Below are positions 25,430 to 37,674 of a DNA stretch of 64,000 nucleotides, one piece after another (within the stretch, counting starts at the first letter, position 1; each line of letters starts with the position of its first letter). The position numbers and the translations under genes were made by a program. Location of the stretch: NCBI GenBank assembly GCA_030950925.1, contig JAUZQO010000035.1, positions 1 through 64,000 of the forward strand, given 5' to 3'. The stretch comes from Mariprofundaceae bacterium (lineage in GTDB: Bacteria; Pseudomonadota; Zetaproteobacteria; Mariprofundales; Mariprofundaceae). Below the pieces are notes generated by a model. That model searched no databases, was not told the origin of the DNA, and saw nothing but the letters and a program-made list of their open reading frames with translations.

Positions 25430-25459
25430 AGATTGAAAGATGTGAACAAGGTAGGTTTG

Positions 25460-26170
25460 ATGATGAAAAAAAACGTAAAATATGAAGGTAAAGGCAAAGC
25501 CTTATACAACACCGATATCGAAGGTGAGTTGATTCAGGTTTTTAAAGATGATGCCACAGCCTTTGATGGTAAGAAACACGATACCATCACGGGTAAAGGT
25601 GTGTTGAACTGTGCTATTTCCACGTTCTTTTTTGCTGCTTTAGAAGATGTAGGTATAAAAACACACTTCATTCGCCGAGAAGCTGATAATGAAATGCGCA
25701 TCCATGCTTTATCCATGATGCCTGTGGAAGTCGTGGTGCGAAACATCGCTGCGGGTTCGATCTGCAAGCGTTTGGGCTTGGAAGAAGGCTTGGTGTTAAA
25801 ACGCCCCTTAACCGAATTGTTTTATAAAGATGATGCCTTGGGCGACCCGATGATTAATACCGAGCATTGTGAGCTGTTTGGCTGGGCAAAAGCGGAACAA
25901 ATCCGCGAGATGCGTGCTTTGGCATTGGATGTGAATGCGGTGATGTCGAATATTTTGGAAGAAGCAGGCATTCGTTTGGTGGACTTCAAACTTGAATTTG
26001 GCTTGTTGAATGGCGATATTGTGCTGGGAGATGAAGTTTCCCCCGATGGTTGTCGTTTGTGGGACATCGAAACCAATCGTAAATTGGATAAGGATGTGTT
26101 TCGCCGTGATTTGGGAGGCTTGTCTGAAGTTTACCATGAAGTTGCAACGCGTTTGGGTATTAAAGTTTAA
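25460..26170 (+). CDS. purC: SAICAR synthetase (phosphoribosylaminoimidazole-succinocarboxamide synthase)
   Basis: PurC joins aspartate to CAIR in purine synthesis. The roughly 236-residue sequence has YEGKGKALYNT near the start (ATP loop), FKDDATAFDGKKH, EVVVRNIAAGS near 90-100, GLVLKRPLTELFYK and VLGDEVSPDGCRLWD near the ATP/Mg site. Length and sequence fit the compact bacterial form most like alphaproteobacterial PurC. ATGs at 25460 and 25463 are both possible after GGTAGG; the frame opens at 25433. It is the last core gene before the unusual cluster. Confidence 0.96.
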   Translation: MMKKNVKYEGKGKALYNTDIEGELIQVFKDDATAFDGKKHDTITGKGVLNCAISTFFFAALEDVGIKTHFIRREADNEMRIHALSMMPVEVVVRNIAAGSICKRLGLEEGLVLKRPLTELFYKDDALGDPMINTEHCELFGWAKAEQIREMRALALDVNAVMSNILEEAGIRLVDFKLEFGLLNGDIVLGDEVSPDGCRLWDIETNRKLDKDVFRRDLGGLSEVYHEVATRLGIKV

Positions 26171-26275: not shown

Positions 26276-26466
26276 ATGTCAACCAGCCTTTTATACCACG
26301 CTTTTGGTCTACCTACGGGTTATCAATATGAGAGTAGTTGCTATGAGAACGGGGCGATCACCTTTGTTATTAAGCGAGAAGCGTCATGCACTTCGCTGTA
26401 GCCACTGTAATAGTCGCAGGCTTAATTACGCGGTAGTCAGATGCGTAACATCAGTTAAATATGACA
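26276..26466 (+). pseudogene. ISL3-family transposase, N-terminal remnant
   Basis: The first 40 codons from the ATG at 26276 (GAGG upstream) read MSTSLLYHAFGLPTGYQYES, the typical start of ISL3-family transposases. The frame then stops near 26400. A one-base shift restores the family's zinc-ribbon part, ALRCSHCNSRRLNYAV. Everything after that, well over 300 residues, is missing. This is a frameshifted and truncated remnant. It fills most of the 327-bp gap between purC and the next gene; the sequence 26171-26275 probably contains the old left end of the element. Confidence 0.78.
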
Positions 26467-26497: not shown

Positions 26498-27235
26498 ATG
26501 TCTCAGATCATCCCATGCCATACGCAAGTCTATAAAATTCATGAGCTATCAACAGCATGGCGTAATGGGATGCTGTGTCTGTATCAGAAATATTATGCCG
26601 ATAGCAATGAACGCACATTCTTTGCCGATTTGGATAACAAAGATTATGTTATTCTTATGCAAAATTCAGATGAAAATATCTGTGGTTTTTCAACGCTTCA
26701 GGTATTGGAAACTTCTTTTCAAGGGCATTCCATACGTGTGATATTCTCGGGTGATACCATTGTTCATCATACTTATTGGGGCAAACAAGACTCTGGGATG
26801 TTTTTTCTGCGTCTTTCAGGGCAAATTTGGCAGCAAGCCGACATGCCGCTATATTGGCTTCTTATTAGCAAGGGACACCGTACTTATCGCTATCTCAGTA
26901 TTTTTACGAAAAAATACTTTCCCAACTTTCGTAAAGACGCATCTGTATGGCAGCAGGATCTCACCCATCACCTTGCCAAGCAACAGTTCGGAGATAGCTA
27001 TAATGCTTCGACTGGTGTTTTATCTTTTAATCCGCCGCGTGAGCGATTAAAAGATGTATGGACAAACATTCCAAATCAACACAGCCATTTACCCGATGTT
27101 CGTTTTTTCCTGCAAAAAAACCCAGGGTTTATCCATGGTGATGAACTTGTTTGTCTTGCCGAGCTATCACCTGATAATTTAAAAGCCAGAGCGAAACGTA
27201 TTTTTTTACAAGGTGCTCATGCTTCACAAGCTTAA
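26498..27235 (+). CDS. GNAT-like N-acyltransferase of unknown substrate
   Basis: A 245-residue protein of a widespread GNAT-like group. YVILMQNSDENICGFSTLQVLE near 50-72 and IRVIFSGDTIVHHTYWG near 79-95 form the acyltransferase core. LYWLLISKGHRTYRYL near 119-134 and DVRFFLQKNPGFIHGDELVCL near 208-228 are other conserved patches. No signal peptide. It opens the cluster and its stop overlaps the GH3 gene by 17 bases. The function is not known to me. The start codon lies next to a TTAACC sequence that resembles the ends of small elements elsewhere in the window. Confidence 0.68.
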   Translation: MSQIIPCHTQVYKIHELSTAWRNGMLCLYQKYYADSNERTFFADLDNKDYVILMQNSDENICGFSTLQVLETSFQGHSIRVIFSGDTIVHHTYWGKQDSGMFFLRLSGQIWQQADMPLYWLLISKGHRTYRYLSIFTKKYFPNFRKDASVWQQDLTHHLAKQQFGDSYNASTGVLSFNPPRERLKDVWTNIPNQHSHLPDVRFFLQKNPGFIHGDELVCLAELSPDNLKARAKRIFLQGAHASQA

Positions 27236-28778
27236 AAAAGATTATAAATTATTCCTCAATGCGCTTGAAAATCCGCAGGAAGCTCAGTTAGCCCAATTAC
27301 ATCGTATTTTAAATAAAAATAAGGACTCATCCTTCGGCAAACAATATCATTTCAATCAACTCAAGACGATTGAAGATTATCAGACATCACTTCCTATTCA
27401 ACATTATGAATCCTTTGCTGAATCTATTCAAAAGATGCAACAGGGTCATGCGAGCATTTTATTTTCCGAACCTGCGACTATTTTTGAAAATACAGGGGGA
27501 AGTAGTGGCGGTCAAAAAATCATTCCATGGAATAATTCCGCATTTGAAGCATTAAGGCGTGGTATCAAACCATGGTTGGCTGATTTACTTACCCATCACC
27601 CAGACCTTCTTTCAGGTTCAAGTTATTGGGCTATCAGTCCAGTTGGAAAGAATTCCAGTTCATCACATGATGTGATGTTTTTTGGTGCCGAAATCGCCGA
27701 AGTTCTCATTCCTAGGCTGGCAGTCCCACTTCAAATATCCAGCATCGAAGATATGGATGCTTGGGCATACTGGACACTTCGTTATCTTATTGTTGCCAAA
27801 GACTTGCGTTTTATTTCTGTTTGGAGCCCAACATTCATGCTTCAAGTTATTAGAAAATTGTTGGATCACGCTGAACAGGTGATATATGATATTCGCACAG
27901 GCACTTCCTCATTTTCAATACCAGACTGGCTTCATCAACAGCATCCCATGCTCCAAGCTGACCCGCTGCGAGCCAAAGAACTCTACAACACTATTCAATG
28001 CGGTAATTTTCAGATGTTATGGTCTGAGCTTAAAGTCATCAGTTGTTGGAAAGACGCATCTTCATCTTTTTTTATAGATGAGCTTACAGCCTACTTTCCA
28101 AATGTTTATATTCAGGGCAAAGGTCTGATCGCAACCGAAGGTATTACCAGTTTACCATTGTTTACATTTCCTTATCCTGTCTTAAGCATCCACAGTGCTT
28201 TTTACGAGTTTATTGATCAATATGGGGATATTTATTTGGGGCATGAGTTGCTTGAAAACGAACAGTACCGTATTGTCATCACAAATCATGCAGGGCTATA
28301 CCGTTACGACACAGGCGACATGGTTTGCATACGCGGTTATGCCCAAAACACACCCATGTTACAATTTATGGGAAGAGTACAGTGCAGTGATATATGTGGG
28401 GAGAAAATTAATGAAGGCTTTGCACATCGCTGCCTGAAAAATTTACGGGGCTTTGTCATGCTAACTCCTTCCATACCAGCCTCCTCAAACTTTCATAATA
28501 TTCCCCATTACATTTTATTATTGGATAAAAATAATTATTCCCATATTCAAGCACGTCAGACGGCGGTTTATATCGACCAACAATTAAGCAAAAATCCACA
28601 ATACCTTTATGCAAAAAAAATAGGTCAACTTGCCTGTGTTCAGGTCATTCGTGTTGAAAATTTTTTATCACGTTACATTGCATACCGCATCCAACAAGGT
28701 CATAATCTTGGAGATATTAAACCACCATGTTTATACCTTTCTGGTGACTGGCAACTATGGGCATTGGGTGAGCAATGA
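27219..28778 (+). CDS. GH3-type acyl-acid amido synthetase (ANL superfamily)
   Basis: A 519-residue member of the GH3 family, whose plant relatives adenylate a carboxylate and join it to an amino acid. The ATP/AMP loop ENTGGSSGGQKIIPW lies near 88-102. YIQGKGLIATEGITSLPLF near 290-308 and YRYDTGDMVCIRGY near 363-376 match the A5/A7-like core. FMGRVQCSDICGEKINE near 386-402 gives the hinge. Length is close to the family's usual size. The ATG at 27219 follows AAGGTG; the GTG at 27213 is possible. In this cluster it is the best candidate for the bond-forming step, making an amide or ester from an activated acid. Confidence 0.86.
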   Translation: MLHKLKKDYKLFLNALENPQEAQLAQLHRILNKNKDSSFGKQYHFNQLKTIEDYQTSLPIQHYESFAESIQKMQQGHASILFSEPATIFENTGGSSGGQKIIPWNNSAFEALRRGIKPWLADLLTHHPDLLSGSSYWAISPVGKNSSSSHDVMFFGAEIAEVLIPRLAVPLQISSIEDMDAWAYWTLRYLIVAKDLRFISVWSPTFMLQVIRKLLDHAEQVIYDIRTGTSSFSIPDWLHQQHPMLQADPLRAKELYNTIQCGNFQMLWSELKVISCWKDASSSFFIDELTAYFPNVYIQGKGLIATEGITSLPLFTFPYPVLSIHSAFYEFIDQYGDIYLGHELLENEQYRIVITNHAGLYRYDTGDMVCIRGYAQNTPMLQFMGRVQCSDICGEKINEGFAHRCLKNLRGFVMLTPSIPASSNFHNIPHYILLLDKNNYSHIQARQTAVYIDQQLSKNPQYLYAKKIGQLACVQVIRVENFLSRYIAYRIQQGHNLGDIKPPCLYLSGDWQLWALGEQ

Positions 28779-28798
28779 AAAGCCTAATAGGAGGAGCA

Positions 28799-28825
28799 AT
28801 GTGTGAAAATATGAAAAAAATATGA
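28799..28825 (+). CDS. Eight-codon leader ORF coupled to the radical SAM gene
   Basis: After AGGAGGAG (28789-28796), the strongest ribosome site of this cluster, an ATG at 28799 opens an eight-codon frame reading MCENMKKI. Its TGA overlaps the ATG of the radical SAM gene at 28822 as ATGA. The radical SAM gene has no other good ribosome site, since the strong one lies 25 bases away. The short frame probably feeds ribosomes to it by translational coupling. A functional peptide is possible but not supported. Confidence 0.4.
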   Translation: MCENMKKI

Positions 28826-30141
28826 ATATTATTCTCATCTCTCCCAAAGGTCCTTTATATCGCCACCGTGGAGGCTCATTCAAAAAGTCTCTGAGATATG
28901 CCCCTCTCACCTTAACCACACTGGCTTCATTGGTTCCTGTCAATCTGGGAGCAAACGTATCCATTATTGATGAGGGCATTCGTGAAATCCCTAACTATCT
29001 GGATGCTGACCTCATTGGCATGACGGTCATCACAGGATCTGCCAAACGCGCTTATGCACTGGCTAAACAATTCAGGAAACAAGGTATCACCGTTGTCTTG
29101 GGTGGACCACATGTCACGCTGCTACCTGATGAGGCGGCTGAACACGCCGATGCCATTGTTGTGGGGTATGCTGAGCAAACATGGCCACAGTTATTGCAGG
29201 ACTTTCATAATGGTGAACTTCAACCTCGCTATAATCAAAACAGTGATCTGGATCTTACAAATATGCCGTTTCCGCATCGGCATTTATTACCCAAAGGATC
29301 GTATATTACCCAGCATGTATTTGAAGCTACACGTAGTTGCAAACATGCCTGTGATTTTTGTGTTGCACCAATTGCATGGGGAAGAGGACCCTATCAAAAG
29401 CCGGTTGGAGATGTTGTAGCAGACATCAAACATTGTAAGGCTAAAAAGATCATCTTTATTGATCTAAACCTTATCTCGGATAGAGCTTATGCCATGACAC
29501 TTTTTGAAGCACTCATTGCCTTGAAAATACGTTGGTTTGGTCTAAGTACTATGCTGATTAGTCAAGATGATGAACTTTTGGATATGGCGTGTAGAAGCGG
29601 TTGTGCAGGTTTATTGATTGGTTTTGAATCCATTTCAAGCAATATCCTAAGAGCCAGTAAAAAAGGCTTTAATAAACCAGCCCAATACCAAGAGGCTGTG
29701 CGCAAGCTGCATGAATGTAATATTTCAGTTATGGGGTGTTTTGTTTTCGGGCTGGATGGTGATACATCAGAAATATTCAAAGAAACTGCCGACTTTATTA
29801 TGGATGCCCATATTGATTTGCCTCGCTTTGCTATTGCCACACCTTTTCCTGCCACACCTTTATATCACCGTCTTAAAAAAGAAAAGCGCATTCTAAGTGA
29901 TGATTGGGAGCTATATGATGGTCAGCATGTCGTTTTTCAACCCAATGCGATGAGTGTCAAAGATTTACAAGAAGGTCATGAATGGGCTTGGCGATATACT
30001 TATCGTTTTAAGTCTATTGCCAAACGCCTGGCAGGCTCGCGTGTTCAACCCTTATTGGGCTTAACATCAAATCTTGGCTATCGTTATTATGCCAGAAATT
30101 TACACAAGTATTATACCTGTGATTGGTTTGTAGGCCGATGA
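28822..30141 (+). CDS. B12-binding-domain radical SAM enzyme, copy 1
   Basis: A 439-residue enzyme of the BchE/HpnP-like class. The N-terminal Rossmann domain (about 1-130; VVLGGPHVTLLPDEAA) is of the cobalamin-binding type, but no DxHxxG motif is seen, which is common in this class. The radical SAM cluster motif is C173xxxC177xxC180 in RSCKHACDFC. FIDLNLISDRAY, GLLIGFESI and FVFGLDGDT are typical barrel motifs. Such enzymes methylate or rearrange unreactive carbons. It is paralogous to the next gene, which starts by ATGA overlap. Confidence 0.88.
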   Translation: MNIILISPKGPLYRHRGGSFKKSLRYAPLTLTTLASLVPVNLGANVSIIDEGIREIPNYLDADLIGMTVITGSAKRAYALAKQFRKQGITVVLGGPHVTLLPDEAAEHADAIVVGYAEQTWPQLLQDFHNGELQPRYNQNSDLDLTNMPFPHRHLLPKGSYITQHVFEATRSCKHACDFCVAPIAWGRGPYQKPVGDVVADIKHCKAKKIIFIDLNLISDRAYAMTLFEALIALKIRWFGLSTMLISQDDELLDMACRSGCAGLLIGFESISSNILRASKKGFNKPAQYQEAVRKLHECNISVMGCFVFGLDGDTSEIFKETADFIMDAHIDLPRFAIATPFPATPLYHRLKKEKRILSDDWELYDGQHVVFQPNAMSVKDLQEGHEWAWRYTYRFKSIAKRLAGSRVQPLLGLTSNLGYRYYARNLHKYYTCDWFVGR

Positions 30142-31493
30142 AACTCACGATTATTCACCCATCCATTGGTCGGCGAAAAAATGAAAAATATTTGCGTTCA
30201 TGGCAGATGGAGCCTCTTCCCGCTGCTATCATTGCAGGTTTAACGCCCTCTGATATTGATATTCGCTTCTATGATGACCGCAATGAAAGTATTCCCTTTG
30301 ATGATCCGACCGATCTTGTTGCCATCAGTGTTGAGACTTATACCGCCAAACGTGCTTACCAGATTGCCAGTGATTACAGACGAAGAAATATCCCAGTTGT
30401 TATGGGAGGGTTTCACGCATCGCTATGTCCTGAAGAAGTGGCTCAATATGCTGAAAGTGTCTTGATTGGAGAAGCCGAAGAATGTTGGTCTCGACTGCTT
30501 GATGACTTCAGACACGGTAGTTTACAAAAGTATTACCGTAGCGACTCCAGACCCTCTCTGAAGCATTTAAATTATGATCGAAGTATTTATCAGGGCAAAC
30601 GTTATCTACCTATTGGTTTGATTGAAGCTGGTAGGGGCTGCCATTTTAAATGTGAATTTTGTGCTATTCAAAGTGTTTTTAACGCCTCGCACAATCGGCG
30701 ACCTGTGGATGATATTATCGCTGAAATCAAAATTCTTCGAGGGAAAAAGAACTTCTTTTTCTTTATTGATGATAATGTCACATCCAATATGGAGGAAGGT
30801 AAAGAATTATTGCACGCCTTGATTCCACTCAATATAAAATGGGTAGCACAATCTAGTATTAATGCAGCCCACGATAAAGAATTTCTAGCTCTATTGGTGA
30901 AAAGCGGTTGTAAGGGTCTTCTTATTGGCTTTGAAAGCCTGAATAAGCAAACCCTACAACAAATGGGCAAAGGATTTAATCAAATGGGTGGTGGTTATGA
31001 AGTCGCCCTTGCCAATTTGCGACACTTTGGCATTCGAATTTATGCAACTTTTGTATTTGGTTATGAACAAGATACAGCTGAAAGTTTTGAAGCCACACTT
31101 GCCTTTGCGATGAAACATAAATTTTACCTTACTGCCTTTAACCACCTCACCCCTTTTCCAGGAACACCGCTTTATCAACGCCTGAAAAAGGAGAATCGTC
31201 TCAGTTATGAAAGCTGGTGGCTGGATTCCGAGTATAGCTATAATATCGTACCCTTTAAACCTGTAAAAATGACGGCTGTAGAGCTACAAGCAGCTTGTAT
31301 CAAAGCCAGGGGAGAGTTTTATAGTATATCTAGTATGCTACGCAGAGGTTTTAGTAAACCCAATCGGAGTGATGCTTTTATGTTTAGAAATTTCTTTCTT
31401 ATCAATCAAATGCACCGTGCAGAAGTCAAGCAGCGTAATTTTTTTCCGCTGGGTGATCAAAATTGGCAAGGTGAGTTAATTAAGGCATCATGA
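30138..31493 (+). CDS. B12-binding-domain radical SAM enzyme, copy 2
   Basis: A 451-residue paralogue of the preceding gene. The N-terminal cobalamin-type domain has VVMGGFHASLCPEEVA near 87-102, the [4Fe-4S] motif is C168xxxC172xxC175 in GCHFKCEFC, and FFFIDDNVTSN, GLLIGFESLNKQTL and TFVFGYEQDT follow. There is again no DxHxxG. The ATG at 30138 overlaps the upstream stop. Two tandem enzymes of one class suggest two successive radical steps on one scaffold, or a heteromeric pair. Confidence 0.88.
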   Translation: MKLTIIHPSIGRRKNEKYLRSWQMEPLPAAIIAGLTPSDIDIRFYDDRNESIPFDDPTDLVAISVETYTAKRAYQIASDYRRRNIPVVMGGFHASLCPEEVAQYAESVLIGEAEECWSRLLDDFRHGSLQKYYRSDSRPSLKHLNYDRSIYQGKRYLPIGLIEAGRGCHFKCEFCAIQSVFNASHNRRPVDDIIAEIKILRGKKNFFFFIDDNVTSNMEEGKELLHALIPLNIKWVAQSSINAAHDKEFLALLVKSGCKGLLIGFESLNKQTLQQMGKGFNQMGGGYEVALANLRHFGIRIYATFVFGYEQDTAESFEATLAFAMKHKFYLTAFNHLTPFPGTPLYQRLKKENRLSYESWWLDSEYSYNIVPFKPVKMTAVELQAACIKARGEFYSISSMLRRGFSKPNRSDAFMFRNFFLINQMHRAEVKQRNFFPLGDQNWQGELIKAS

Positions 31494-32584
31494 AACATCG
31501 CGTTTATTTCAGTCAAGCCACGCCAGATGATGAGCAGGGTTTAAACGATTTATTAAAAAATAGTCCAATGCGTGGTGATATCACACTATCTTATGAACGA
31601 AAACCTGATTTTTTTGCAGCACATGCAATCGAGGGTGATATATGTCAAAGCATGGTTGCTAGGTCGAAAAAAAAGGTTGTCGGCTGCTTTTCCCATGCTC
31701 AATATAAAGCTTTTGTGGATGGTATACCTCGTTCATTGGCATACCTTGGACAGTTGCGCTCTCTGCCTGCTTACAGAAATAAAATTCGCTATATCAAACA
31801 AGGCTTTGAAGCCTGTCGGCTTATTCAGAAGGCATCCCCAACCATCCTTACAGTTACCAGTATCATTTCCAATAATCATGTCGCCAAACGCTTGTTCAAT
31901 GCGGGCGTGGATGGGTTGCCACAATATAAGCAACTTGCGGATATAAGCACATTGGCGATAGCAATAAAAACGATCAAAGTCTCCAGTAAAGTGCGCCAAG
32001 CTACACTTGCAGATATTCCAGATATCATCACATTTTTAAACCGTGAATACACCTATTTTCAGCTTGCTCCAGTGTGGACTAAGCAAGATCTTTTATCTGA
32101 TCGAACACGCGGGCTTGATATAAGTGATTTTTTACTACTTCATCAGGATAATCAGCTCATTGGCTGTCTTTCCGTGTGGGATCAGTCATCTTTTAAACAA
32201 TATATCATACGTGGCTACAGCAAAAAAATAAAATCATGGCGATGGATTTTGAATATAAAAGCAAGGGTATTGGGGGGAATGCGATTTCCTAATATTGATG
32301 AAGAAATTAGCTATGCTTTTTTATCTCATATCGCAATTCAAGAAGATCATATTCAAAATATGAAGCTATTAATCCAAGCTGCTATGTCATTGGCAAAAGA
32401 AAAAGGCATCGATTTACTTTTGCTTGGTATGGATCGCAAACGACCACTTTTCTCAAATATTAAAAAATTATTTTCTCATGTTGAATATACAAGTACACTG
32501 TACAGTGTTTGTTGGGATCAGCCACAGGCTTCGCTTACTATACAAAAAAAATACTTTTTTCACCCCGAAATAGCGATGATGTAA
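31490..32584 (+). CDS. Two-domain GNAT acyltransferase-like protein
   Basis: A 364-residue protein that looks like two GNAT folds in tandem. The first domain (1-165) contains VVGCFSHAQYKAFVDG, AYLGQLRSLPAYRN and TVTSIISNNHVAKRLFNAG. The second (about 168-360) has QATLADIPDIITFLNREY, DNQLIGCLSVWDQ and IAIQEDHIQNMKLLIQAA. The start overlaps the radical SAM stop by ATGA. Such double GNAT proteins often use lipid or tRNA donors, but the substrate cannot be read from sequence. It sits in the middle of the coupled gene run. Confidence 0.72.
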   Translation: MKHRVYFSQATPDDEQGLNDLLKNSPMRGDITLSYERKPDFFAAHAIEGDICQSMVARSKKKVVGCFSHAQYKAFVDGIPRSLAYLGQLRSLPAYRNKIRYIKQGFEACRLIQKASPTILTVTSIISNNHVAKRLFNAGVDGLPQYKQLADISTLAIAIKTIKVSSKVRQATLADIPDIITFLNREYTYFQLAPVWTKQDLLSDRTRGLDISDFLLLHQDNQLIGCLSVWDQSSFKQYIIRGYSKKIKSWRWILNIKARVLGGMRFPNIDEEISYAFLSHIAIQEDHIQNMKLLIQAAMSLAKEKGIDLLLLGMDRKRPLFSNIKKLFSHVEYTSTLYSVCWDQPQASLTIQKKYFFHPEIAMM

Positions 32585-32665
32585 AAAATGAAAGAAAAAA
32601 TACAATATTGCTACTTTAGAGTATAAAAAGCAATGTAAAGGTGTTTTTGGAAGGGAGAGAATATA

Positions 32666-33283
32666 ATGAAATTTCAACATATCTTACTGGCATTGATCTT
32701 CAGCCCCATCATGATTCTTCATGCTAATGCGGCAGATTTACCGAGCCTGAATCCAAATGATTCACATTATCAAGATCGTGTTGATCTTGGAAAAGTCCTG
32801 ACAAAATTGGAAGCAGCTATTAATGCTAAAGATTTGGATGGCATGACAGAATATATGCACCCCACCATTACTATAGCATGGTATGATGCTGAAATATCGC
32901 ATGGTATTACAGAAGTAAGAGCCTATTATAATCGTATGTTAACGGGGAAAGATGCTCTAGTTTCTAATTTTAAGACCCAAGCAAGCGTAAGTCATCCTGC
33001 AATTTTTTATGGCGACACCGCCATTGCAAGCGGTGCGACGAGCGATCAGATGATTGTGGGCGGTCAAACATTCAATCTTCATGGTATATGGACTGCAAGC
33101 CTGATCAAGGAACAACAACAATGGCTGATTACATCCATTCATTTTTCAGTGAGCCTGTTTGATAACCCCATGCTTGATACAAGCAAGAAAATGACCGTAT
33201 GGATGACCGGTGCAGCATTTTTAGTAGGAATATTGATCACATGGCTTCTATTCCGACAAAAAAGAAAAATTGTATCACTTTGA
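32666..33283 (+). CDS. Exported, C-terminally anchored NTF2/SnoaL-like protein
   Basis: A 205-residue protein with a signal peptide (MKFQHILLALIFSPIMILHANA), an NTF2/SnoaL-like cone domain from about 35 to 160 (LTKLEAAINAKDLDGMTEYMHPTITI and LHGIWTASLIKEQQQWLITSIHFS) and one C-terminal transmembrane helix (about 178-197) with a basic tail. The pocket domain is thus likely held in the periplasm. Members bind or cyclise small hydrophobic molecules; here the role is unknown. GGAAGGGAGA upstream is a good ribosome site. An 81-bp gap precedes it, the only sizeable one in the forward run. Confidence 0.75.
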   Translation: MKFQHILLALIFSPIMILHANAADLPSLNPNDSHYQDRVDLGKVLTKLEAAINAKDLDGMTEYMHPTITIAWYDAEISHGITEVRAYYNRMLTGKDALVSNFKTQASVSHPAIFYGDTAIASGATSDQMIVGGQTFNLHGIWTASLIKEQQQWLITSIHFSVSLFDNPMLDTSKKMTVWMTGAAFLVGILITWLLFRQKRKIVSL

Positions 33284-33292
33284 TTGTTTGAG

Positions 33293-34222
33293 ATGCAGAA
33301 AAATTCTAGCATTCCATCGAATCTGAATATATTTCTGGTTATCACAGTAGCTACAACTATGCTCTTTTTATTGTGGTTGGCATCCAATCTCGCTTACTTA
33401 TGGTCAATTCCTATCGGTATATGTTTTGCATTTTTAGCTCAAACAAACTATGCCCTACTGCACGAAGCAATACACGGCATATTATACCCGAAAGCACACA
33501 TCAATCGTTTACTGGGGCGTATCAGTGCGGCTATGTTTCCAACCTCATATACACTGATGCGGCATACCCATATTGTGCATCATTGTTGTAACCGCAGCGA
33601 TCATGAAATGTTTGATTATTACTATTCTCAAGATAAAATATTTTATAAACACATTCAGTGGTATGGCATTGTAACAGGTATATATTGGCCTCTTATTCCC
33701 ATCGGCTGCACTTTACTTGCACTCTCACCAAGCTTGTTGCGTAATCATTTTTGGCAAAAATTTCGCTCAACCAATGTATTGTTTGAAGATTTAACAGATA
33801 AAGATTTTATGATTATGCGTTATGAAATTTTGATAGCAATGGTATCTTTTGTCAGTTTGTTTATGCTACTTGATCTGCACTGGCAACAATGCCTAAGCCT
33901 CTATTTGATGGCAGGTTTTTTATGGTCTACTCGGCAGTATGTTACCCATGCCTTTACCAAACGAGATATTATTCATGGGGCTTTAAACCTCCAAACAAGC
34001 TGGCTAATGGATAAGTTTATTTTACATGGTGGTTGGGATTTGGTGCATCACCAGAATCCACATTTATCTTGGATTCATTTGCCCGATATGGCGAATCAAA
34101 GCGCTGACAGGGTTGCTTTTTGGTCACAGTATATGCGTTTATGGTGTGGACCTTTACCTTGCAAAGAGCAAGCTCCGAAAGTTTTAGCGCGTAAAAACTA
34201 TACTCTTTTGGGTAAGAAATAA
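33293..34222 (+). CDS. Membrane fatty acid desaturase/hydroxylase-like protein
   Basis: A 309-residue membrane di-iron enzyme. Four to six hydrophobic helices carry the three histidine boxes: HEAIH at 57-61, HTHIVHH at 91-97 and HHQNPH near 252-257. Such enzymes use oxygen to desaturate or hydroxylate acyl chains and related lipids. The frame opens with TTG at 33284 directly after the preceding stop; I prefer the ATG at 33293. The last 39 bases overlap the opposing PAP2 gene. It is the first of two oxygen-dependent enzymes in the cluster. Confidence 0.85.
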   Translation: MQKNSSIPSNLNIFLVITVATTMLFLLWLASNLAYLWSIPIGICFAFLAQTNYALLHEAIHGILYPKAHINRLLGRISAAMFPTSYTLMRHTHIVHHCCNRSDHEMFDYYYSQDKIFYKHIQWYGIVTGIYWPLIPIGCTLLALSPSLLRNHFWQKFRSTNVLFEDLTDKDFMIMRYEILIAMVSFVSLFMLLDLHWQQCLSLYLMAGFLWSTRQYVTHAFTKRDIIHGALNLQTSWLMDKFILHGGWDLVHHQNPHLSWIHLPDMANQSADRVAFWSQYMRLWCGPLPCKEQAPKVLARKNYTLLGKK

Positions 34223-34789
34223 GCAACCATGAACCAGTAGTATCGCTGTAAGTATATCCAATACTTGATGTTGATGCGTGAATAATACAGCCATAGCAAT
34301 ACATACAAACCAGCTATATAAAAAAACTATGTGTTTTTTTGAAGCGGCAAGAGTACAATAAGAAACAACAGCATAGCTATAGGATATATGCAGTGAAGGA
34401 AGCGCATTATATGGCTGATCAAGTTGATAAAGCATTTGGTATAGCGGATAAAATAATGAGTTTTCATGCCCTGTTCGCACAAAACCTATATGAGAGGGAA
34501 ACAACCAAAAAAACAAGCCGCTGATTAGCGTGATGGCAACCATGAGTTTTGCTAATTCTTTTAATCTATTGATATCCATATACCATAATGGCATCCAGAG
34601 AAGTAATGTGATAGAAAGGTAAGGCAGAATCATCCAGTCAATAAAAGGAATACTTTTTTCCCATACAAAATAAAAATGCCAGACAGTATGATGATTGGCT
34701 GCCGCATCATTACTGGGAAAATAAACCAACAAAAAAAGAGTACTTATAAGGAGGTATTGTTTGATAAAAATAGGAAAAGTTTTTGGCAT
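34184..34789 (-). CDS. PAP2-family membrane phosphatase
   Basis: A 201-residue protein with about six membrane helices and the PAP2 signatures NALPSLHISYS near 126-136 and FTHQHQVLDI near 172-181. The first, lysine-rich motif is weak, as in the inositolphosphotransferase-like branch (DUF5933/PAP2_3). It would cleave or transfer a phosphate headgroup of a lipid at the membrane. It is the only minus-strand gene of the cluster, overlapping the desaturase at its end and lying 36 bases from the divergent Rieske gene. Confidence 0.82.
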   Translation of the reverse strand: MPKTFPIFIKQYLLISTLFLLVYFPSNDAAANHHTVWHFYFVWEKSIPFIDWMILPYLSITLLLWMPLWYMDINRLKELAKLMVAITLISGLFFWLFPSHIGFVRTGHENSLFYPLYQMLYQLDQPYNALPSLHISYSYAVVSYCTLAASKKHIVFLYSWFVCIAMAVLFTHQHQVLDILTAILLVHGCLFLTQKSIVFTR

Positions 34790-34825
34790 TGAGCTGACAA
34801 TAATACATGATCTTAACCTTTTGCA

Positions 34826-35827
34826 ATGAACATCTCTGAAAATGCTTTCCCAAACTCATGGTATCCTCTTTGCCGATCCATAGATTTAAGGTCAGGAAAG
34901 GTACGAACATGTTTTGCTTTGGGTGAACGTTTTGCTGTATTCCGAACGGTGAGTGGAAAAGTTGGTGCATTACAGGCCGTTTGTTGCCATATGGGGGCAA
35001 ATTTGGATTTTGGGCATGTTCGAGGAGAAGCACTTTGCTGTCCCATGCACCATTGGGAATATAGCCATACTGGGCAATGTACACATATCCCGATTGATTC
35101 CAATATACCTCGTTGTACCAAACAACAATCTCTTCTCTGCGTGGAGCACTATGGGCTTGTCTTTGCTTGGCTAGGTGAAGAAGACCCCAGTTTTCAGCCA
35201 CCAGTTTTTCCGCTGGGCGAAAAATTTCATATCGCTTCACCACGCCATTTTTATTTTGATGCGCCCTATCAGACGGGTGCTGCCAATGCTTATGACCAGC
35301 ATCATCTGCATAGTGTTCACCGTCGGGAAGTCATTGACTCACCAAAGTTTTACCAACGGATAGATCAACATTTCGGCATTGAATTTCAAGCCAATATTAT
35401 AGGTCGTTCAATATATGATCACTTACTGATTAGCATGGGAAAAAAACAAGTTCATATTAGCATTGATTGCTGGGGAGGCAACTTGCTCTTGATGAATCAT
35501 CTGGGAACACCGAATCATATGATGATAGCTTTATTGCCCATTACACACAAGCGCACGCGGATGTTTGCCGTTACATTGACTCCTCGCCTAACTTCCCCTG
35601 TAGCCAATTTTATTTTTGGTAAGCTTATGGTCAACATTATGCATCATTTAACCATGATGTTTGTAAAGCAAGATTTTCGTGTATTGCGAGGCATGCATCT
35701 TAAACCGAATATTTTACTGCCAAAGGCCGATGATTCTTTTATTCGCTGGTTTCACTACTGGGAAGCATTGCCTCGCACAAGCCTTGCGCAACAAGTGATG
35801 AAAAACAGAAAATCAAAAGAGAGCTGA
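34826..35827 (+). CDS. Rieske-type non-haem iron oxygenase
   Basis: A 333-residue oxygenase alpha subunit. The Rieske [2Fe-2S] ligands are in AVCCHMGANLDFG (Cys-x-His) and CCPMHHW (Cys-x2-His), around residues 52-78. The catalytic iron site is NAYDQHHLHSVH (D-x2-H-x4-H) near 153-164. The form resembles single-component-like sterol and aromatic oxygenases (KshA/VanA group). No reductase gene is nearby, so electrons must come from elsewhere. The start at 34826 lacks a clear ribosome site. The next gene follows after five bases. Confidence 0.9.
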   Translation: MNISENAFPNSWYPLCRSIDLRSGKVRTCFALGERFAVFRTVSGKVGALQAVCCHMGANLDFGHVRGEALCCPMHHWEYSHTGQCTHIPIDSNIPRCTKQQSLLCVEHYGLVFAWLGEEDPSFQPPVFPLGEKFHIASPRHFYFDAPYQTGAANAYDQHHLHSVHRREVIDSPKFYQRIDQHFGIEFQANIIGRSIYDHLLISMGKKQVHISIDCWGGNLLLMNHLGTPNHMMIALLPITHKRTRMFAVTLTPRLTSPVANFIFGKLMVNIMHHLTMMFVKQDFRVLRGMHLKPNILLPKADDSFIRWFHYWEALPRTSLAQQVMKNRKSKES

Positions 35828-35832
35828 AAGAA

Positions 35833-36786
35833 TTGGCATATATATTTCCTTCAGCCCCTATGGATGAATTCAACTTGTGGGAACAAGCCCAGCCATGGGT
35901 GAAAAAAATGCATGGGCAAATCCCCAGCCGCATTGAAATACAACAACTTACTAAAACACTAGGCATTGATCTCACCACTTCAATATTATACCAAGCTATT
36001 CTTGCATCAAAGAGGGATGGTAGTTTTATTCAAACATTGAAGCAAATACCATTGATAGTAAGCAAGCAACAAACAACAAAATCACAAACCGTTAAAGTTT
36101 TAATCATTCCAGCCATGTACTTTCAACAGCATCCAGAATTGGGAAGTGATGGTAAAATCATGCACCATGTTGCCAGTCAACTTGGCATATCCACTGAAAT
36201 AATTCCAACCTTAAGTCTTGGGTCTGTACAACAAAATGCTGAAATTATTGCGCATGTCATCCGCCAAAAAACCTGTGACCACCTTATCATTTGCACTTTG
36301 AGCAAGGGGGCATCTGATTTTCGATTGGCCATGGAACGCTTCATCCCTGAACATGCTCATCGCATTCAAGCATGGATAAATATTTCAGGTACTCTTCATG
36401 GAAGTGCTTGCGTTGATGCGATGCTAGATAGCACAGTAAAGCGCTTATGGTTTAAATTACTTTGTCGTGGGATAGGTGCTGATTATGGCTGCTTAGATGA
36501 ACTTAGAACAGCCCACCCATTTTGGCAATCCAAATGGGAATTACCCCACAGTACAAATGTGATTAACATCCTGCCACTCCCTCTCATTCCACATGTACAT
36601 AAACAACTTTCAAAAAGGTACCATGTATTATCTTACCAAGGGCCCAATGATGGTGTGATGCTTCCCCATGATGCTATTTACCAAGCAGGTTTTATTTACC
36701 CTGTCTGGGGCTGCGATCATTTTATGCGCACACCCTTCATTGGAACATTATTACGAAGAGTTTTCCTATACTTGCTGCAATATTGA
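35833..36786 (+). CDS. Alpha/beta hydrolase-like protein
   Basis: A roughly 317-residue protein with a probable alpha/beta hydrolase fold from about 85. VLIIPAMYFQQHPELGSDG lies before the nucleophile region LIICTLSKGASD, where Ser in LSKGA takes the usual GxSxG place. YQGPNDGVML supplies a likely Asp and WGCDHFM the His. The nucleophile elbow is atypical (Leu in place of the first Gly), so activity is not certain. Start is unclear: TTG at 35833 or ATG at 35860. It closes the cluster; a lipase, esterase or acyltransferase role would fit. Confidence 0.65.
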   Translation: MAYIFPSAPMDEFNLWEQAQPWVKKMHGQIPSRIEIQQLTKTLGIDLTTSILYQAILASKRDGSFIQTLKQIPLIVSKQQTTKSQTVKVLIIPAMYFQQHPELGSDGKIMHHVASQLGISTEIIPTLSLGSVQQNAEIIAHVIRQKTCDHLIICTLSKGASDFRLAMERFIPEHAHRIQAWINISGTLHGSACVDAMLDSTVKRLWFKLLCRGIGADYGCLDELRTAHPFWQSKWELPHSTNVINILPLPLIPHVHKQLSKRYHVLSYQGPNDGVMLPHDAIYQAGFIYPVWGCDHFMRTPFIGTLLRRVFLYLLQY

Positions 36787-36881: not shown

Positions 36882-37496
36882 TCATATCAGCTCCTTGTTA
36901 AAGGTTTCTGACCAAGCCTGAAAAATACCTTCAAGTGTTGGGTATTGGGGTTGAATATCACATATATTCACAGCTTTTAACCCCAAACCACACGGGTTGA
37001 TGGCATTAAAATAACGCATATCTACATCCACATTCAATGCCATGCCATGATAAGCCACACCTCGGCTAATACGAATGCCAATGGCAGCGATTTTCCCTTG
37101 ATTTGTCCAAATACCCGGTTTGCCACAGCGCCGCGTTGCATAGATGTTGTAGATTTTCAAGAGTTTAATGGTTGATACCTCCAATATTTCAATATATTGT
37201 CGAATATTGACACCGCGTTGTCGCAAGTGAATGATGGGGTACAACATCACTTGCCCTGTACCGTGATAGGTAGTTTCACCACCACGATCTGTTTTAATCC
37301 AAGGGGCTGGAAGTGTTTTTGTATATCGGTTGTCGATGCCGCGTTTTCCTGTAGTGTAAATGGGGTTGTGTTCGCACCCATAAATAATTTCATGGGATTG
37401 CTGGTTGGCAAGTTGTTTGGCATGGTGTTGTAAAGCTTGCCATTGTTGAGGGTAATCCTGCCTGCCAAGCCATTGAGCAGTTATTGGATTGAGCAT
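36882..37496 (-). CDS. lipB: Lipoyl(octanoyl) transferase
   Basis: LipB moves the octanoyl group from ACP to lipoyl domains. The 204-residue protein has HNPIYTTGKRG, TDRGGETTYHGTGQVMLYPI near 70-88, RRCGKPGIWTNQGKIAAIGIRISRGVAYHGMALN and the catalytic Cys in NPCGL, paired with the conserved Lys in GKIAAIG. Start at 37496 is well set by CAAGGAGATCCC before ATG; the open frame to 37589 is extra. It marks the right edge of the unusual cluster. Confidence 0.95.
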   Translation of the reverse strand: MLNPITAQWLGRQDYPQQWQALQHHAKQLANQQSHEIIYGCEHNPIYTTGKRGIDNRYTKTLPAPWIKTDRGGETTYHGTGQVMLYPIIHLRQRGVNIRQYIEILEVSTIKLLKIYNIYATRRCGKPGIWTNQGKIAAIGIRISRGVAYHGMALNVDVDMRYFNAINPCGLGLKAVNICDIQPQYPTLEGIFQAWSETFNKELI

Positions 37497-37541
37497 GGGA
37501 TCTCCTTGTTGATGATGGAATGTCAATGCATAGTGTGGGGG

Positions 37542-37674
37542 TACTTCCACGCTATAGTCGTTTAAGTATTGATTGATCCTTATGGTCATTCCCGAAATCT
37601 TGTATCGGGAATCTATGGCTTAAAGAGATCCTCGACAAAAGCACGCGAGGATGACGAGCTACTTCCACGCTATA
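37542..37674. repeat. REP-like double hairpin between 15-bp direct repeats
   Basis: The 15-base sequence TACTTCCACGCTATA occurs at 37542-37556 and again at 37660-37674. Between them lie two hairpins: ATTCCCGA with TCGGGAAT, and ATCCTCG with CGAGGAT. Paired hairpins of this kind resemble the common intergenic palindromic repeats of proteobacteria. The direct repeats could be a target duplication made when the element inserted between lipB and the sensor kinase gene, and the right copy lies just before that gene's ribosome site. Confidence 0.65.

Follow-up and report, generated by a model that had tools for sequence, protein, structure and literature searches.

A Horizontally Transferred Ten-Gene Unit in a Mariprofundaceae Bacterium That May Make a Hydrophobic Acyl-Amide

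Ten open reading frames (ORFs) lie between purC and lipB at positions 26498-36786 of the window, by which we mean the whole 64,000-nucleotide stretch of a Mariprofundaceae bacterium contig analyzed here, and nine of them are on the + strand. These genes form one unit, and the reading that we narrowly favor is that they are a horizontally transferred set making a hydrophobic acyl-amide (a "lipo-amide"). An earlier reading made from the letters of the DNA (the sequence-only reading) had placed ten genes between these two flanks, with one gene opposed, and all of the ORFs were confirmed. It had also called them a single unrecognized biosynthetic unit, a view borne out by their conserved content in distant genomes, by a relative whose corresponding site is empty, and by the lack of an equivalent in the literature that we searched. 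The features of the locus are listed below, with the modules into which comparison with other genomes divides them.

25433..26170, + strand: purC, left flank; adjoins lipB in the empty site of genome G017
26276..26460, + strand: decayed mobile-element remnant at the left edge, frame-broken, possibly a transposase N-terminus (six-frame translation, repeat, weak match)
26498..27235, + strand: g1, GNAT-like protein with a single domain, family unnamed, module 1 (conserved in 25-row alignment A4)
27219..28778, + strand: GH3 acyl acid amido synthetase, a predicted adenylating amide ligase, module 1 (PF03321; alternative start at 27213)
28822..30141, + strand: rSAM1, B12-class radical SAM enzyme with CxxxCxxC, module 2 (domain match and orthologues)
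30138..31493, + strand: rSAM2, radical SAM paralogue of rSAM1, module 2 (domain match and orthologues adjoining rSAM1)
31490..32584, + strand: dGNAT, probable double-GNAT acyltransferase with an NMT-like layout, module 2 (weak GNAT/NMT_C matches; 18-row alignment A5)
32666..33283, + strand: SnoaL/NTF2-like protein with a signal-peptide-like N-terminus and a C-terminal membrane anchor, module 4 (PF13474)
33284..34222, + strand: membrane fatty-acid desaturase/hydroxylase, TTG start, module 4 (PF00487, His boxes)
34184..34789, - strand: PAP2_3 membrane phosphatase/phosphotransferase, module 4, the sole opposed gene (PF14378, motifs)
34826..35827, + strand: Rieske non-haem iron oxygenase, module 3 (PF00355, motifs)
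35833..36786, + strand: alpha/beta-hydrolase-like protein, TTG start, module 3 (triad pattern in alignments)
36882..37589, - strand: lipB, right flank

The genes are closely packed. g1 and GH3 overlap by ~17 to 23 nt, and rSAM1/rSAM2 and rSAM2/dGNAT overlap by 4 nt each; SnoaL and the desaturase abut, 5 nt separate Rieske from the hydrolase, and the PAP2 and desaturase genes converge, running together tail-to-tail. Wider spacing separates GH3 from rSAM1 (43 nt) and dGNAT from SnoaL (81 nt), and promoter and terminator scans gave only background levels.

Conservation of the Ten Genes as a Unit

All ten families recur in genome G976 (locus L127), on one strand and in a contiguous block of 10.2 kb with the order g1, GH3, rSAM1, rSAM2, dGNAT, Rieske, hydrolase, SnoaL, desaturase, PAP2. 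Its relative G1191 (L141) carries the same ten families, again as one same-strand block, in the order Rieske, hydrolase, SnoaL, desaturase, PAP2, rSAM1, rSAM2, dGNAT, g1, GH3. Identity between the window and G976 is highest for the radical SAM proteins (rSAM1, 60%; rSAM2, 61%), followed by the desaturase (42%), g1 (39%), GH3 (36%), hydrolase (34%), dGNAT and Rieske (30% each), SnoaL (29%), and PAP2 (22%). In each of the three complete clusters, the genes within four modules (g1-GH3; rSAM1-rSAM2-dGNAT; SnoaL-desaturase-PAP2; Rieske-hydrolase) stand in the same order, while the modules themselves are shuffled. Six neighbor pairs are common to the three orders, a degree of sharing that none of 200,000 randomly ordered triples equaled in a test that ignores the strand of PAP2 (opposed in the window only). 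Because the ten-family block is present in two other genomes and its arrangement was never matched by random orders, chance is excluded.

The complete set represents two lineages, namely the zetaproteobacterial genus and the single family to which both G976 and G1191 belong; many of the genomes compared are drafts. To these can be added an IncFIB/IncFII plasmid of Citrobacter portucalensis with 8 of the 10 families and five radical SAM genes, on which g1-GH3-rSAM1-rSAM2-dGNAT (ordered as in the window) are followed by two more radical SAM genes, PAP2, SnoaL, an opposed radical SAM gene, and the desaturase. Partial versions occur in G1117 and, broken by a contig end, in G832. In the class to which G222 belongs, 3 of 369 genomes searched have an rSAM1 orthologue at 59 to 60% identity, and the next best match stands at 37%. 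Viral contigs yielded no relative of g1, and E. coli genomes yielded no match in either the near or the distant search mode. The sequence-only reading had pointed to the families encoded at 26498, 27219, 28822, and 30138 as ones to look for together elsewhere, and they do co-occur in G976, in G1191, and on the Citrobacter plasmid; homologues form ten-family blocks in the first two of these rather than being scattered singly.

A Wider Operon Built on g1, GH3, and dGNAT

Three of the ten families extend well beyond the complete clusters. In 399 genomes drawn evenly across the phylum, this kind of GH3 occurred in 8, g1 in 6, and both in five (Fisher test, 4e-9; 8e-6 when the genome of the window and its sister are left out). 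Within the order of G222, 21 of 245 genomes carry g1, and GH3 was present in 22 of the 22 g1-positive genomes tested. The two genes adjoin each other in nearly all loci, and the order g1-GH3-dGNAT, sometimes interrupted by other genes, is kept in L041, L043, L045, L046, and L083-L095. This co-occurrence and order indicate that g1, GH3, and dGNAT are the core of a wider conserved operon.

The company that this core keeps differs from genome to genome. HlyD/RND-type exporter genes flank it in 11 loci, a PapA_C-like acyltransferase in 9, and AraC-type regulators in 7, and one neighbor is an MMPL exporter; HlyD-MFS(-TolC) systems that resemble EmrAB-TolC by sequence stand beside it in Acinetobacter and G220. 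An oxygenase type combines Rieske and AurF-like diiron proteins with FA_hydroxylase and hexapeptide transferases and, in G1199, also with SnoaL and PAP2. The Burkholderia arboris version is without a radical SAM gene; it has g1, dGNAT, GH3, Rieske, a desaturase, a protein in which PAP2 is fused to a desaturase, and a member of the metal-dependent hydrolase family PF10118. In a tree of GH3 proteins, in which branches are long and finer placement is unsure, five proteins of the radical SAM type grouped with that of G119 at 99/96 and twelve of the exporter type grouped at 100/100; by this topology, the two types are separate groups.

Several further observations concern these loci and their relatives. 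Several Pseudomonadales-type genomes encode an AdeT1/2-family solute-binding protein near the core operon, and Acinetobacter has a similar-looking protein ~7 to 8 kb downstream, adjoining adeS (L083:7173-8153, also L084 and L085, and L043:23496-24491). In the oxygenase-type locus of G1199 (L140), the g1 match carries one in-frame stop, and one ORF there combines an amidohydrolase domain with one resembling Mpo1, a 2-hydroxy fatty acid dioxygenase. A distant g1 homologue (~22% identity) on an Azospirillum plasmid (L060:9977-10861) is without GH3 and sits beside ABC-transporter-like and thioester-reductase-like genes. A different group of bacterial GH3 proteins, in L047 (G315) and L048 (G154), lies beside an enolase-superfamily epimerase-like gene and a membrane-protein sequence, apparently another undescribed GH3 context.

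Protein Families and the Proposed Pathway

Judged against the curated cut-offs of Pfam and NCBIfam, the domains named by the sequence-only reading held for GH3, both Radical_SAM proteins, SnoaL, FA_desaturase, PAP2_3, and Rieske; its GNAT calls proved marginal, and its alpha/beta hydrolase matched no family. The GH3 protein matches PF03321 over its full length at 158 bits (cut-off, 23.6; E=4e-46), with the GH3 middle domain above cut-off too. The key residues of its nucleotide-binding motifs TGGSSG, TEG, and YRYxxGD are invariant in alignment A3 and largely kept in a second alignment, and its closest solved structures in a PDB profile search are plant GH3s. It is, on these scores and motifs, a genuine member of the GH3 family. 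Plant GH3s (JAR1, GH3.12, and GH3.5) align with it at near full length (E ~1e-29 to 1e-25) and have the nucleotide-binding motifs in common, but they are stand-alone hormone-conjugating enzymes with no cluster.

The two radical SAM proteins, which are paralogues at 35% identity, score 57 and 52 bits for the Radical_SAM domain, and their CxxxCxxC motif is invariant across every aligned orthologue of either. Both had been described as B12-class, which stands for rSAM1, whose B12-binding domain reaches 46.9 bits against a cut-off of 32.1, and falls short for rSAM2 at 28.2. Orthologues of rSAM1 are 58 to 60% identical in four other loci (next best, ~37%), and those of rSAM2, at 55 to 61%, adjoin them. 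HpnJ, HpnR, BchE, and rSAM_ladder_B12 have the same B12-binding-like N-terminus, radical SAM core, and CxxxCxxC; the cluster proteins nevertheless form a separate orthologue pair, 55 to 61% identical among themselves and no more than ~37% to others, and membership in the BchE, HpnJ, HpnR, PhpK, or ladderane radical SAM equivalogs was rejected at ≤91 bits against NCBIfam cut-offs of 360 to 650. A widespread stand-alone radical SAM family, ~35% identical to rSAM1, is found without the core and without consistent neighbors in L055-L059, on plasmids of Clostridia (Paraclostridium), spirochaetes (Treponema), Vibrio, cyanobacteria (Synechocystis), and Bacteroidota (Aureibacter), and these plasmid neighborhoods gave no functional hint.

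SnoaL_3 (PF13474) scores 38 bits, and the C-terminal hydrophobic segment that would anchor this protein is present in 7 of 7 homologues. FA_desaturase (PF00487) scores 60 bits with the His boxes HE..HG, H..HH, and HH..P retained, PAP2_3 (PF14378) 28.9 bits against a cut-off of 27 with PSLH and H.H...D retained, and Rieske (PF00355) 73 bits with CxH/CPxH and the iron site NxxDxxHxxxxH retained; the closest solved relatives of the last in a PDB profile search are KshA and SxtT/SxtDIOX. The hydrolase fits no family of Pfam or NCBIfam, and the Ser/Asp/His triad pattern (SKG, PNDG, DHFMRTP) that it has in common with L127 and L141 is visible in alignments only. For g1, which bears the motif GFST...FSGDT...YWG, the window protein itself has no Pfam, NCBIfam, or PDB match, and the window dGNAT gives only a marginal NMT/GNAT signal in Pfam. 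Among homologues, the best GNAT E values (~6e-4 for g1 and ~4e-4 for dGNAT) fall short of the Pfam GNAT cut-off; the two profiles align with each other at 78% probability, and PDB profile searches with both returned GNATs and NMT at E ~0.4 to 1 only, nothing significant. Both proteins are, on these matches, best termed GNAT-like rather than GNAT.

GH3 enzymes adenylate an acid and then transfer it to an amine. Bacterial GH3 homologues number in the thousands, and one of them, OlsH, has been shown by experiment to be an ATP-dependent synthetase of N-acyl amino acids that needs neither CoA nor a carrier protein to act on free fatty acids and ornithine (PMC12493201). We propose amide formation because the GH3 protein scores above cut-off, because its nucleotide-binding residues are kept, and because of this bacterial precedent. 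We propose a lipid substrate because of the desaturase, PAP2, and anchored SnoaL in the window and because exporters, PapA-like proteins, FA_hydroxylases, and an Mpo1-like domain occur beside the core elsewhere.

The substrates, the order of the steps, and the product are those that we infer from the gene content. The starting substrate would be a hydrophobic acid with a long chain, a fatty acid being the likeliest candidate, and the desaturase, the Rieske oxygenase, and the two radical SAM enzymes would remodel its unactivated carbons, the last by methylation or by ring or C-C bond formation. PAP2 may remove a phosphate, and the hydrolase an ester or thioester (or it may transfer an acyl group), freeing groups for coupling. 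GH3 would then use ATP to adenylate the acid and couple it with an amine; attachment of further acyl groups could fall to the two GNAT-like proteins. The anchored SnoaL, PAP2, and the desaturase suggest that late steps take place at the inner membrane or its periplasmic face. Acid-plus-amine chemistry with radical and oxygen tailoring would fit all of the findings, and hosts in micro-oxic settings would suit such a mix of O2-dependent and O2-sensitive enzymes.

Several points weigh against this pathway. The cluster in the window is without an exporter, a carrier protein, or a dedicated fatty-acid synthase. A non-fatty substrate for the Rieske oxygenase is possible because its nearest solved relatives act on steroids and saxitoxin-type compounds. 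The GNAT assignment is marginal for two of the three core proteins, and single-sequence structure models of g1 and dGNAT are of low quality (predicted local distance difference test [pLDDT] scores of 32 and 35).

Two other products deserve consideration. The first, which we regard as unlikely, is a membrane lipid built on an amino acid, akin to ornithine lipid, with GH3 N-acylating the amino acid in the manner of OlsH, the hydrolase or a GNAT-like protein attaching a second chain in the manner of OlsI, and the other enzymes decorating the chains. In Singulisphaera acidiphila, ornithine lipid is the product of OlsH, a GH3 enzyme that uses ATP to activate a free fatty acid and yields an N-acyl amide, together with OlsI, an alpha/beta hydrolase (PMC12493201). 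In favor of this reading, all three ten-gene clusters contain a hydrolase, and the cluster GH3 matches the OlsH model (NF052613) weakly and in part, at 37.9 bits over residues 18-129. That score, however, is far from the 620 bits required, and membership in the OlsHI system was rejected. The cluster hydrolase matches no NCBIfam model and is missing from the Citrobacter version, the exporters beside the core elsewhere suggest a secreted product rather than a membrane lipid, and the described pathway has no radical SAM or Rieske step; nor does OlsHI include two GNAT-like proteins, a desaturase, PAP2, or SnoaL.

Less probable still is an isoprenoid or sterol/hopanoid-type acid, for which PAP2 would strip phosphate from a prenyl diphosphate, followed by CrtW-like and Rieske oxidation, BchE/HpnJ-like radical methylation or cyclization, and GH3 conjugation. 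The best family matches do lean in this direction (HpnJ/BchE for the radical SAM proteins, the 4beta-methylsterol monooxygenase SdmA for Rieske, and CrtW for the desaturase), as does the best solved Rieske relative, the steroid hydroxylase KshA. All of these family matches are nonetheless weak and far under curated cut-offs, none of the annotated cluster versions had a recognizable prenyltransferase, terpene cyclase, or squalene/hopanoid gene, and the FA_hydroxylase, PapA-like, and NMT-like partners suggest straight-chain acyl substrates. Ladderane, polyketide synthase (PKS), nonribosomal peptide synthetase (NRPS), and polyyne clusters resemble the acyl-amide pathway in working on modified hydrocarbon chains. 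Membership in the ladderane, hopanoid, and PKS/NRPS classes was rejected, with scores under cut-offs or parts absent. As the sequence-only reading had held, no PKS, NRPS, or carrier-protein domain is found in the ten genes; Pfam and NCBIfam searches detected no ketosynthase, adenylation-carrier module, acyl carrier protein, or fatty-acid synthase among them.

Horizontal Transfer and Significance

A search of genome contigs matched only the sister of the 1.97-Mb host genome (G000), the metagenome-assembled genome NORP31, and GH3 together with the cluster is present in 2 of 78 Zetaproteobacteria genomes, 75 of which have lipB. In G017, a genome of the same genus, ~11 bp separate purC from its convergent neighbor lipB, and the histidine-kinase gene that comes after lipB is the same one; this junction is the empty site without the cluster. 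Distribution is likewise patchy in the family of G976, where 3 of 41 genomes carry g1. The two host species diverge by ~1 to 4% in the left flank and by ~0.5% over most of the cluster. A comparison of the window with L002 gave a mosaic, with 2 to 3% divergence across 32666-34222 (SnoaL-desaturase) and ~0.5% over the rest of the cluster; together with the divergence of the flank, this suggests that the cluster was recently exchanged between the two host species and that the SnoaL-desaturase patch may be older, as though it had been left out of that exchange. In those genes for which it was computed and which had changes, the ratio of nonsynonymous to synonymous substitution rates (dN/dS) was <1, weak evidence given how few the changes were. 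The restricted presence, the empty site, the patchiness in the family of G976, and the mosaic near-identity indicate that the ten genes were horizontally transferred.

The sequence-only reading had placed a wrecked transposase at the left edge. A decayed fragment is indeed there, and a 96-bp piece of it is repeated at 85% identity in two other places in the genome; its transposase identity is less firm, with one match of 51% over 33 amino acids to an annotated transposase (E=0.03) and no Pfam match, so that it may be a transposase remnant. A repeat search found no clear flanking repeats delimiting a mobile unit. That the ten genes are unrelated passengers gathered at an insertion hot spot, as this possible remnant, the patchy distribution, and a G+C content (~37 to 41%) lower and a GC skew flatter than in the flanks might suggest, is refuted in practice by the same ten-family block in two distant genomes, by neighbor pairs never matched in random orders, and by the constant pairing of g1 with GH3.

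OlsHI, described in 2025, was the only worked-out bacterial GH3 pathway in the literature that we searched. That search returned no description of a cluster combining GH3, GNAT, and radical SAM genes, which is weak evidence given that it covered few subscription journals and little of bioRxiv. The loci compared here link a conserved GH3 core with two unnamed protein families and with three tailoring styles, in Zetaproteobacteria, in other Pseudomonadota, and on a Citrobacter plasmid. A broader interpretation, to which we give a little less than even credence, is that g1-GH3-dGNAT defines an undescribed class of bacterial clusters with at least three architectures (radical SAM, oxygenase, and exporter), found across Pseudomonadota and on plasmids, in which two unnamed acyltransferase-like families take part, radical SAM and O2-dependent enzymes remodel one chain, and the products would be a new family of acyl-amide lipids. 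rSAM1 and rSAM2 would represent two new radical SAM orthologous groups, probably acting on hydrocarbon chains. Since the gene set is defined, variants exist in nature, and the empty site offers a control, a search for the product by ordinary heterologous expression and lipid mass spectrometry is practicable.

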